Of a stretch of DNA of 64,000 nucleotides, positions 28,742-33,390 are shown in pieces (position 1 is the stretch's first letter; every line of letters begins with the position of its first letter). The stretch covers positions 1 through 64,000 of the forward strand of contig JAEPNQ010000001.1 of the NCBI GenBank assembly GCA_017643305.1, in the 5' to 3' direction. Both the position numbers and the translations under genes were made by a program. The notes under the pieces are model-generated. The model made no database searches. It saw nothing but the letters and a program-made list of their open reading frames with translations, and was not told the DNA's origin. This DNA is from Marinibacterium sp. (lineage in GTDB: Bacteria; Pseudomonadota; Alphaproteobacteria; Rhodobacterales; Rhodobacteraceae).

Positions 28742-29508
28742 CAATCCGCCGTCCAGCCCCCATCGAGCAGCATGGACGTTCCGGTGACCAATGCACTGGC
28801 GTCCGATGCCAGGTAGACCACTGCGCCCATGATGTCCTCAATCTCGCCCGGGCGTCCCAGCTTGATCCTGTCCAGCACCCAAGCCCGTTTTTCCGGATCT
28901 TCAAAGGTCGGACGACTGAGCTCAGTCAGGATGAATGTCGGGCAGATCGTGTTGACCCGGATCTTCGCCGGACCGAACTCCAACGCCATGGCCTTGGTGA
29001 AACCTTCGACTGCGAATTTCGATGCACAATAAACCGCGCGGTCGATACCACCAACATGCCCCATCTGGCTTGAAATGTTGATCAGGCTGCCCGGTCGGCC
29101 CGCCTGCAGCAACCCTTTGGCCACGGCTTGGGTCAGAAAATATGCGCCGCGCAGATTGATATCCATCACAGCATCGAAATCATCCGCCGTCGTGTTCACG
29201 GCCTTGGAATGCCGCGCCAACCCGGCGGAGTTTAGCAAAACATCAAACGGGCCATTTTCGGCCACGACCCGGGCAGTGGCGGAGACGTCTGAGACGTCCA
29301 GCACCAACGCATTTGCTGACCACCCTTCCCGGGTCATGTCCCGGACAAGATCGTCCAGCATGGCCGCACGACGGGCCACAAGCGTTACTTCGGCCCCATT
29401 TTCCGCGAGCGCCACGGCGCTGGCCAGCCCGATACCAGAGGACGCGCCAGCCACCAGCGCCCGTTTACCGGTCAGATCAAAGGAAGGCGTACGTGGAAAC
29501 GCCATCAC
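28741..29508 (-). CDS. Short-chain dehydrogenase/reductase
   Basis: NAD(P)-dependent oxidoreductase of 255 residues. The cofactor loop G-A-S-S-G-I-G is at residues 21-27, N-S-A-G near 92, catalytic Ser in N-I-S-S-Q near 145 and Y-C-A-S-K near 158-162. The acidic V-L-D-V and lack of an Asp after the second strand (V-A-R-R) favour NADP(H). It is coupled by 4-nt overlaps to the NTF2-like gene before it and to the LacI gene after it. It probably oxidises or reduces a hydroxyl of the imported sugar-like compound. Confidence 0.92.
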   Translation of the reverse strand: MMAFPRTPSFDLTGKRALVAGASSGIGLASAVALAENGAEVTLVARRAAMLDDLVRDMTREGWSANALVLDVSDVSATARVVAENGPFDVLLNSAGLARHSKAVNTTADDFDAVMDINLRGAYFLTQAVAKGLLQAGRPGSLINISSQMGHVGGIDRAVYCASKFAVEGFTKAMALEFGPAKIRVNTICPTFILTELSRPTFEDPEKRAWVLDRIKLGRPGEIEDIMGAVVYLASDASALVTGTSMLLDGGWTAD

Positions 29509-30557
29509 ACATCCCCCACCGGAAACGGGATGGAACCCGGCACACGGGTTTTGTTGAATTCGCGCATTCGGCCAAGGACATCCACATCCAGCTGTCGATA
29601 GGCATCCAGAATGTCGACCAACACCCAGTTTTCCCGGATCTTGCCGTTTTCCAGCCGCCAGAAATCCAGGCTCTTCATTGTAATCTTTCGACCTGCCGGA
29701 GCGATGCCCATCCAGCCATCATGGGTGACGGTCTGGATCATGTTTGGCCAGCCCGTCACAGCCGCATAATCCCCATCGCCAAAGAAGTGATAGGTGATGT
29801 CGTCCACATATTGGCCACGGTCGGGCATGCCATTCAGGAACGGGATCTGGTGCCAGTTGCGGAACCCGGCAACCCCCCGGCCCGTGCCGATCCCGGCCGG
29901 TCCATACCAGTTCATCTTATCATGCCAGAAGCGCGGCATCTCCATCACCTCAGGCCCACCCTGGCTAGGGTGTTTCTTCATGTGGTCGAGCATCGTGATA
30001 ATATGCTGCTGCGACGCCTGCGACTTGGCCTCGTCCCACGGTCCGGGCACGATCCCGTCCAGCGTGGCCGGACCGGGAATGCAGAATTCCAGCCCCAGCG
30101 ACGGCGCCATCGGCCAGGCCCCAGCCTGCATCGTGACCTCGGGAATGTCCCAGAGCGCCTGAACCTCAACGATCTTCTCCCCTTCGATGCGGAAGAATTC
30201 GTGATAGCGCATGTGTGTCAGATGCCCCCCTGGCGGAATATCCAACCACGGTGCGACGAACGTCCCAAAATAATGCCCCCCACAGCCAATCCAGTTCGCA
30301 CCATGTTCGTCCGGACCTGCCATGACGATCCAATCCCGCCGTTCCAGATCAGGCATGGCCGCCAGCAACGGCGCATAGCATGTGCTATAAAATGCCCCCG
30401 GACCAACCATGTCCCCCAACGGGTAAGGCATGTGGATAACCGCGTCGGCGTCTATCACGGCCTCCAACGCTGCGCGCACGCTGGCTTCGTCAAAATCATA
30501 AAGCGCCGCCCGCAATGGCGCGATCAGCGCCTTGTTGGCAGTATGGATGTCACTCAT
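29505..30557 (-). CDS. NTF2/SnoaL-like protein, two-domain (copy B)
   Basis: Soluble 350-residue protein with two NTF2/SnoaL-like domains. Each ends in the characteristic strand pattern: [16 protein letters not shown] in the first and [17 protein letters not shown] in the second. The [13 protein letters not shown] segment supplies polar residues to the first cavity. Start ATG at 30557 overlaps the dehydrogenase stop (ATGA). Similar to copy D at 37006 in architecture, so the two may have come from duplication. Confidence 0.85.
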
Positions 30558-31864
30558 TCCGCCGCCTCTCCGTACGGCACGTTTTTCCCGCCATAGCGGC
30601 GGACGCGAATGTTGCACTGCTCGGCATGGCCAACAAAGCCTTCGAGCATGCACAGGCGGGAGCCATATTCACCCACCATCGCCGCTGCTTCGTCTGTCAT
30701 CACGCGCTGATAAGAATGGGTTTTCAGGAATTTTCCGACCCACAACCCACCTGTGTAACGACCGGCCTTCTTGGTTGGCAGCGTGTGGTTCGTGCCTATT
30801 ACCTTGTCGCCATTGGCCACATTGGTGCGCGGCCCCAGAAACAACGCGCCATAGGAATGCATGTTCTCCAGATACCAATCATCGCGATCGGTCATGACCT
30901 GGACATGTTCATAGGCCATGTCATTTACCACCTGCAGCATTTCCTCATGACTATCACACAGCACCACGTCGCCATAATCACGCCAGCTGGCGGCCGCGGT
31001 CTCGGCCGTTGGCAGAATGGCGAGGAGCCGGTCGATTTCGGTCATCGTGTCCCGAGCCAGCTTTGCGGAATTCGTGATCATGCAGGCCGGGGAATTATAG
31101 CCGTGCTCAGCCTGCCCCAGCAGGTCGGTGGCGCAAAGCTCGGCATCCACCGTGTCATCCACGATCAGCATGGTTTCGGTCGGCCCGGCAAAGAGGTCGA
31201 TTCCCACCCGGCCATAAAGCTGGCGCTTGGCCTCAGCCACAAAAGCGTTGCCGGGGCCGACCAGCATATGCACCGGATCAATGCTCTCGGTGCCCAAAGC
31301 CATCGCGCCAACCGCCTGAATGCCACCCAGCACGTAGATTTCATGCGCCCCACCCAGATGCATGGCCGCGACAATTGCCGGATGCGGTTCACCGTTCACC
31401 GGCGGGGCTGACGCGATGATGCGCGGAACGCCAGCTACCGAGGCGGTCAGTACAGACATATGTGCCGAGGCCACCATTGGGAATTTGCCCCCCGGGACGT
31501 AGCAGCCCACCGACTGGACCGGGATGTTCTTGTGCCCCAGGATCACGCCCGGCAGCGTTTCCACCTCGACATCCGTCATCGATGCGCGTTGGGCTTCGGC
31601 GAAGTTGCGGATCTGGGTCTGGGCGAACTTGATGTCGTCCATATCTCGGGCCGAAACCTTCTGCATCGCTGCCTCAATCTCGCTGCCCGTCAGCCGGAAG
31701 CGGTCGGGGGTGTAATTGTCAAACTTGGCCGAAAGGTCCTGAACCGCCGCATCGCCCCGCGTTTGGATATCAGCCAGTGTGGCTTCCACAACAGCGCGCA
31801 CCTTGGCGTCGTCTTCGGCCTTTTCGGCCTCCGTTTTGGAACGTTTCAGATATTCAATTGTCAC
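30554..31864 (-). CDS. HisD-family dehydrogenase resembling sulfopropanediol 3-dehydrogenase HpsN
   Basis: NAD-dependent, zinc-type alcohol dehydrogenase of the histidinol dehydrogenase fold, 436 residues. The sequence [11 protein letters not shown], the cofactor loop [10 protein letters not shown], the metal pair Q-A-E-H-G-Y-N-S-P and the end [13 protein letters not shown] resemble HpsN, which oxidises dihydroxypropane sulfonate to sulfolactate. The true HisD of histidine synthesis differs in the substrate region. Start is GTG at 31864 behind AAAGGATG; the frame is open upstream. Here it sits with a sugar importer and no sulfonate genes, so a polyol or another diol may be the substrate. Confidence 0.88.
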
Positions 31865-31868
31865 GATT

Positions 31869-32405
31869 TCATCCTTTAGGTTCGGGCCGGGGCGGCACCT
31901 TGTTACCCCGATCATAGACTTCCCAGCCTTCGCCATTGAACACGTCAACACCCAGCTGCGCCAAAACATGCGGAAAATCGACCATCACCCAATTGTCAGT
32001 GATCTTGCCGTCTTCGACCTTCCAAAAATCCATGTATCTGATTTCAATGCGCTTTCCGGTGGGAGTAATTCCCATGAAGAGGCCAGAATGCGTGGCTTCC
32101 TGCCGACCAAAAGCCGCGGCCCATTCGCCCATGAAAAGACGCGCCTCATCGATGCAGACCTTGTCCGAGAAAGCTGCCTGAAACGGGCGTTGCCAATTGT
32201 CCTGAAATTCCTTTAGCCCGGTTTTGGTGCCACATCCCTCGTTGCCCATCCACCTGAAACCTTGGGCAAAGAACTGGCCGATATCGTCGATACGGTGGTC
32301 ATTCAACCCGTCCACCATACCTTCGATAACCGCGCGGGTTTCAGCGGTCTTGGACATGTCGGTATCGCGGCTCAGCACCGCTTGTTCGGGCCTTGCGCCA
32401 CTCAT
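31869..32405 (-). CDS. NTF2/SnoaL-like protein, single domain (copy C)
   Basis: Soluble 178-residue protein with one SnoaL-type domain: helix [15 protein letters not shown], then R-W-M-G-N-E-G, and the paired strands [19 protein letters not shown] near the end. The ATG at 32405 has AAAAAAGGA upstream and overlaps the stop of a 36-codon frame. It lies between the importer permease and the HpsN-like gene. Single-domain SnoaL proteins include ester cyclases; its reaction here is unknown. Confidence 0.85.
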
Positions 32406-32512
32406 GTCGGGATCCTTTTTTCATTCGTTTGCCGCGCCATAGGTGAATTGCAGACGCGCAACGTGTCCAGCAGCGCGGCAATCAGGGTTCTGGTGTCATC
32501 GTGAACGTTCAT
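32402..32512 (-). CDS. Translationally coupled small protein, 36 aa
   Basis: This 36-residue frame exactly fills the gap between the MalG-like permease and NTF2-like copy C. Its ATG overlaps the permease stop by 4 nt (ATGA, 32509-32512), and its TGA overlaps the next gene's ATG by 4 nt (32402-32405). AAGGG in the permease end provides a ribosome site. The peptide begins M-N-V-H-D-D-T-R-T-L-I-A-A-L-L-D and ends basic; it may be an amphipathic helix. Coupling on both sides supports real translation, though it could be only a relay keeping ribosomes on the message, or the relic of a longer gene. Confidence 0.6.
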   Translation of the reverse strand: MNVHDDTRTLIAALLDTLRVCNSPMARQTNEKRIPT

Positions 32513-33390
32513 CCCTTGACCGCCCCCGCCGTCAACCCGCTGACGATCTGACGCTGGAAGAACAGGATCAACACGAACAAAGGCGCAGTGGCCGAAACGA
32601 CGGCGGCGACGGCGAACATTATATTTCCCTGCACCTGTACAGACCCAAGGAAACTGGCAACGGCTGGAACCATCGTCTCGTTTGGCTTACTCAGCAACAT
32701 AGAGGTCACGGCATAGTCGTTATAGGCCAAAAGAAAACTGAACAGACCGGTGGTGATCACGCCCGGCCACATGACCGGCACGATCACATACCGAAACGCC
32801 TGGAACCGGGTGCAACCGTCCACCATTGCGCTTTCATCCATATCCTTGGGAATATTCTTGAAGAACGAATGCAGCATCCACAGGGTAAACGGCTGATTGA
32901 TCGCTACAAGCACGATGATGGCCGTCCCTTTCAGCCCCCAGATATTCCATTCGAAAAACGGCAGCATATAGCCCGACACCAGTGTGATGTGCGGCATCGC
33001 GCGAAAAATCAGGGCGGCCATCAGGATCCAGAATGCATAACGAAAGCCCGATCGGGCCAAAGCATACCCTCCCAGCGTCCCGAAGGTGAGCGAGATGACA
33101 ACCGTGAAAAACACGATCACCATCGTGTTCAAAACGTTGCGCCAGAATTCCTCCTGCACCCAGGCCCCAAAATACCCCGCCAGGGTAAAGGAGCTGCCGG
33201 TTTCGCGTTGCGTGAACACGCCGTAGATGGCGTTGGTCCAATCGGCCTTTGAGAAAAAGTCACCCTGCACCTTGAAGCTGCCCCAAACGGTCCAGAGGAA
33301 TGGGAAAGCAGCGATCAAGAGCCAGATCGCGACAAGCGCATAAGAAACGATTTTGAGCGTGGTGAGACGGGAGTCAGCCTGGGTTGCCAT
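32509..33390 (-). CDS. Sugar ABC transporter permease, MalG family
   Basis: Inner-membrane permease of 293 residues with six hydrophobic segments and the EAA loop (E-S-A-M-V-D-G-C-T-R-F-Q-A-F, then V-I-V-P-V-M-W-P-G) near 185-215. It pairs with the MalF-like permease encoded 13 nt upstream. The periplasmic loop before segment two is short, as usual for MalG. It forms half of the channel of the carbohydrate-type importer. Confidence 0.93.
   Translation of the reverse strand: MATQADSRLTTLKIVSYALVAIWLLIAAFPFLWTVWGSFKVQGDFFSKADWTNAIYGVFTQRETGSSFTLAGYFGAWVQEEFWRNVLNTMVIVFFTVVISLTFGTLGGYALARSGFRYAFWILMAALIFRAMPHITLVSGYMLPFFEWNIWGLKGTAIIVLVAINQPFTLWMLHSFFKNIPKDMDESAMVDGCTRFQAFRYVIVPVMWPGVITTGLFSFLLAYNDYAVTSMLLSKPNETMVPAVASFLGSVQVQGNIMFAVAAVVSATAPLFVLILFFQRQIVSGLTAGAVKG

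Follow-up and report, generated by a model that had tools for sequence, protein, structure and literature searches.

A 36-codon frame between a permease gene and a SnoaL gene in Marinibacterium sp.: a probable double-SnoaL gene stub and putative translational relay

Does a short frame that exactly fills the space between two genes encode a small protein, or does it have a different origin and a different role? The question was raised by a 36-codon frame on the minus strand (start ATG at 32512, stop TGA at 32402) of a 64,000-nt stretch of Marinibacterium sp. DNA (contig JAEPNQ010000001.1, positions 1 to 64,000; hereafter the window). Direct reading of the sequence confirmed the preliminary description of this frame, which reported an ATGA overlap at each end. 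The stop codon of the upstream ABC transporter permease gene (32509–33390, minus strand; BPD_transp_1 domain match) overlapped the start of the frame at 32509–32512, and the stop codon of the frame overlapped the start of the downstream SnoaL-like ester cyclase gene (31869–32405, minus strand) at 32402–32405. The permease gene ended in GGATGA and the SnoaL gene started with ATGA; since the neighbours' own codons thus supplied both overlaps, only the phase and the absence of stop codons needed explaining. The SnoaL start was backed by a motif kept in relatives (M[K/S]G[A/S]RPEQ); a simple purpose-made gene caller put it further in, at 32378. A candidate Shine–Dalgarno (SD)-like site, AAAGGA (32413–32418, minus strand), was read before the SnoaL start, within the last codons of the frame.

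The minus-strand cluster around the frame consisted of ABC transporter genes, SnoaL-like ester cyclases, an HpsN-like dehydrogenase, an SDR and a LacI regulator, the last two assigned by eye from the sequence and from one annotated relative. The dehydrogenase gene (30554–31864, minus strand) was histidinol-dehydrogenase-like, and its nearest solved relatives were DHPS dehydrogenases (HpsN): its product matched structures 8wwe and 8v35 with 379 and 370 bits, compared with 251 bits for the best histidinol dehydrogenase. In its cluster, this HpsN-closer dehydrogenase was accompanied by several SnoaL genes and by an ABC transporter of the sugar type. Literature searches on the cluster together with SnoaL found nothing. 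An intact double-SnoaL gene (29505–30557, minus strand) was located further downstream.

The preliminary description held that a frame bridged at both ends was unlikely to occur at random, a claim that did not survive a count of such frames over a 1.6-Mb portion of one related genome. With a simple purpose-made gene finder, same-strand gene pairs separated by 4–400 nt were screened for an xTGA at each end in which x completes a start codon (ATG, GTG or TTG). Doubly bridged frames of at least 10 codons occurred about 11 times per Mb. Among the 61 gene pairs with xTGA at both ends, 21 were bridged end to end, and the phases were distributed 24/19/18, without the genome-wide phase bias that was looked for. 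Openness in this genome was suggestive only (in phase, 19/22 open vs 15.5 expected; out of phase, 17/35 vs 22.5 expected). Given the base composition of the gap in the window, an in-phase frame had a probability of 0.28 of being open, or 0.09 with phase included. A single doubly bridged frame is, on its own, no evidence of a gene.

Searches of Pfam and NCBIfam with the 36-residue peptide gave no match. Its first 19 codons (32456–32512) resembled the 5' end of a double-SnoaL gene that relatives carry in the same slot, both in an anchored BLOSUM62 comparison and in an HMM search. Against the double-SnoaL start at locus L065, 10 of the first 19 residues were identical, with start codon on start codon and an anchored score of 52, which was reached by none of 100000 shuffles and by no other start-anchored frame of the window (set of 4039). 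At the DNA level, 36/57 bases were identical, distributed over the three codon positions as 15/14/7 of 19, as expected if the frame had been coding during much of its history. Because L065 was chosen after the likeness had been seen, a second test used a profile from the N-termini of nine orthologs found by search, two of which belonged to already known loci (L175, from the L031 genome, in which the likeness was first noticed, and L179, from the L046 genome). The 36-codon frame ranked first of 6240 with this profile (18.1 bits, E 6.8e-4), and the second match was the stop-to-stop frame containing the same ORF. A broader profile of 70 N-termini gave the frame only 8.3 bits, with 3/5000 shuffles scoring higher.

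The position of the frame agreed with this origin. In 9/9 relatives and in L065, the double-SnoaL gene started on, or a few bases from, the permease stop codon, and the 36-codon frame was placed likewise. The likeness to the parent gene ended after about residue 19–22. The last 17 codons gave no reliable match and no consistent place when compared with eight reference regions; tail similarity was weak at best (2/200 shuffles as high for L062, 9/200 for L065) and was dropped. The window frame shares its slot and its start by the permease stop with the double-SnoaL (ester cyclase) genes of the cluster (L065:355–1395, L175, L179) and resembles them in its first 19 residues, but those are intact, at about 346 residues. 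SnoaL domains were absent from the frame in Pfam, and we therefore regard it as a stub rather than a member of the double-SnoaL genes. No ortholog of the slot's double-SnoaL gene was found in the window's own genome at E 1e-100, and the intact gene at 29505–30557 would be a paralogue of the one left as a stub. A double-SnoaL gene most likely once lay between the permease and SnoaL genes, as it still does in relatives, and an internal deletion would have taken nearly all of it, leaving a remnant frame from the old start codon to the ATGA at the SnoaL start. At locus L191 (gap of 307 nt), a 104-codon bridging frame looked like what an internal deletion would leave of a GMC oxidoreductase gene (weak blastp matches, E 0.006 and 0.027), a parallel to the stub in the window.

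SnoaL was detected at E 1e-60 in 108 of 394 genomes of the family; 80 further SnoaL loci were fetched from GTDB contigs, and 73 more stretches were added later. From a set of 190 loci, 40 with no permease within reach and 20 duplicates were dropped, which left 130 distinct junctions, the window included. The permease and SnoaL genes overlapped directly in 18, a micropeptide lay between them in 37, the gap exceeded 400 nt in 22, and 53 had other short gaps. The contents of these junctions in relatives ranged from a direct 4-nt overlap through spacers and micropeptides to double-SnoaL genes and GMC oxidoreductase genes, the last named by eye from the sequence. None of the relatives among the 130 distinct junctions carried the 36-residue peptide of the window. 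The one other genome of the genus that was searched matched neither the SnoaL gene nor the junction DNA. Intergenic CPPEA, PPTP or LSRPERAEPR stretches recurred at eight loci (L075, L079, L097, L116, L002, L040, L085 and L234) and are probably dispersed repeats. A contig labelled Vibrio sp. S9_S30 (L134) had a Rhodobacteraceae-type SnoaL gene (84% identical), which indicates either a transfer or a mislabelled assembly.

The micropeptide, MS...R...RHPALNRMPRDF, was found immediately upstream of SnoaL (L034, L035, L064, L069, L090, L133, L171–L173 and others). The suggestion of a conserved hidden short gene at this place was thus borne out for 37/130 distinct junctions, by a peptide of another sequence that the window itself does not have. 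The pattern MS...R(H/S)....RHPALNR(M/L)PRDF(L/I) occurred ahead of the SnoaL gene at 31 loci with 27 distinct sequences. HPALN was the search key of this class and is invariant by construction; outside it, S2, R6, P20 and D22 were each invariant in 27/27. Synonymous codons varied, with R6 encoded by all six codons, AGA and AGG included, and this combination of invariant residues and varying synonymous codons argues for a selected protein. The micropeptide mostly started on the stop codon of the preceding gene, whichever gene that was, as ATGA or TGATG. A profile search of the 394 genomes gave strong matches in 23 (24 places), after 9 of 32 genomes with weak matches only (E 1e-3 to 0.01) had been set aside; with the result tables read side by side, all strong matches were directly upstream of SnoaL. 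The micropeptide was also present in seven of the eight plasmid records that had SnoaL. The sole copy seen annotated as a gene of its own was MALG_05013 of Marinovum algicola, among plasmid gene tables that were incomplete (one of the seven records was unannotated). Pfam and NCBIfam held no family for it, giving one chance-level match, and the micropeptide family seems largely unannotated. In an 80-row tree, carriers fell on either side of the root as drawn, which is tentatively read as a sign that the micropeptide is old and has undergone losses. Close clusters with and without it (L109 and L114, L088 and L106, and, in Tateyamaria, L089 and L102) suggest recent losses.

A reading-frame pattern emerged among the remaining short gaps, where 17 of the 35 non-micropeptide gaps in which it was first met were bridged at both ends. 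In the full set of 53, 31 junctions were eligible in that a start codon overlapped the permease stop and the SnoaL start read xTGA, and 26 of these were in the bridging phase; the other five were split 2 and 3 over the two other phases. One bridging junction, L247, looks like a divergent micropeptide, and the count without it is 25/30. In 18 of the 22 ineligible gaps, which had phases 3/7/8, the permease stop carried no start codon; in the other four (L005, L139, L209, L226), the assigned SnoaL start was not xTGA, partly from an alignment-projected start. Among the 26 in-phase eligible junctions, 25 were open, with largely unrelated sequences, and in-phase gaps of at least 10 nt were open in 24/25 cases vs 12.6 expected. 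A comparison of related clusters thus failed to recover the peptide of the window but did recover, in 25/31 eligible junctions (window included), an open bridging frame of differing sequence. All eight eligible junctions fetched after the pattern had been noticed (L191 and up) were in phase and open. When each cluster of similar gaps was counted once, a step that removes the relatedness of the loci only partly, 21/25 were in phase (p 2.6e-7). Compared with the gene pairs of the related genome, the phase bias was stronger here (Fisher 3.9e-5), as it was when compared with the micropeptide class (0.0012). Bridging was not universal, 28 of the 53 short-gap junctions being non-bridging. Eight of the bridging peptides had no match in Pfam.

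Together, the double ATGA coupling at this junction looks to be under selection, and the pattern suggests a translational relay similar to the MIRU frames, in which the peptide content is free. The 36-codon frame has the corresponding features, overlapping both neighbours with its start and stop and lying where relatives keep an open frame regardless of sequence. A ribosome finishing the permease gene would reinitiate at the first ATGA, translate a filler peptide without a fixed sequence, stop at the second ATGA and reinitiate on SnoaL. A reason for such a relay is offered by the cited part of PMC10666635, according to which ATGA coupling requires close contact and an intergenic distance of about 20 nt nearly abolishes it. 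On balance we favour the interpretation that the 36-codon frame derives from the 5' end of a double-SnoaL gene, and that this stub was probably retained as a relay frame and persists through that function. More tentatively, we hypothesize that selection at this junction acts on reading-frame continuity alone, so that genes and spacers turn over, fillers of any sequence survive by way of two ATGA reinitiations, and gene stubs may become relay frames.

The most serious competitor to a retained relay is a stub that no longer does anything, left by a recent deletion and still open and in phase by chance. It accounts equally for the homology of the stub and draws support from the base rate of doubly bridged frames, which showed no phase bias in the related genome, and from the SD-like site that SnoaL retains. 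A weaker SD at bridged junctions was looked for and not seen: the median was −6.5 kcal/mol for the bridged group (n = 32, with bridged junctions of the micropeptide and long types among them) and −5.4 kcal/mol for the micropeptide class, the opposite direction. Coupling may thus be unnecessary for SnoaL. The strong bias in phase and openness of the junction across genera suggests, however, that open bridging is maintained, and we consider a roleless scar unlikely, though worth serious weight. A frame unrelated to any gene would agree with the base rate, but its start coincides with the start of the parent gene and no shuffle matched that gene start as well; pure chance is the least credible of the explanations.

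The view that the frame is an unannotated functional protein of 36 residues, coupled to both neighbours, is what the preliminary description had in mind in calling it a hidden small gene. The exact overlaps, the micropeptide that holds the same place elsewhere and the concentration of changes at third positions within the first 19 codons speak for it, and the apparently selected double ATGA coupling is the part of that proposal that stands. The peptide itself, however, lacked the conservation in relatives expected of a conserved short ORF, had no family match and no score against the micropeptide profile, and began as a double-SnoaL protein whose likeness soon ends, which makes a functional small protein improbable. 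Descent of the frame from the conserved RHPALNRMPRDF micropeptide by decay would agree with the shared place, and decayed or divergent copies seem, by eye, to be present elsewhere (L120, L247). The micropeptide profile nevertheless gave no match to the frame even unfiltered and at E values as high as 1000, and at E 0.01 nothing in the window's genome matched it; homology to the micropeptide was rejected on this ground, and descent by decay is very improbable.

Comparable arrangements have been described. MIRU frames coupled by −4 overlaps, and short frames that solely deliver ribosomes, are both covered in the cited part of a review (PMC12548453). There, as here, a short frame adjoins a gene with a −4 overlap, and the MIRU peptide is thought irrelevant, ribosome delivery being what counts. 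MIRUs, however, are mobile repeats of common sequence, whereas the fillers at this junction are largely unrelated and that of the window is a gene stub. A search with the junction DNA (161 bases) in the window's own genome at E 0.001 matched only itself, without the copies elsewhere that mark a MIRU repeat. The window frame fits the ribosome-delivering short frames, with a gene stub in the place of the mobile repeat. Termination–reinitiation at ATGA and TGATG pairs, as presented in the cited parts of PMC6728339 and PMC10666635, likewise uses the overlap as the coupling element and needs close spacing, but involves direct contact of two genes instead of two serial overlaps through a filler frame. 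In Salmonella, the small frame mgtQ also lies between two operon genes and promotes translation of the second, mgtB; according to the cited part of PMC8092293 it works via particular codons and RNA stem-loops, whereas the fillers of this junction share no sequence.

If the relay interpretation is correct, some bridging short ORFs from ribosome profiling would have no functional peptide, yet selection would maintain them as carriers of translation, a role that a gene in decay could take up. The junction would then offer a natural set of variants (direct overlap, relay, micropeptide and uncoupled gap) for how continuous coupling must be.
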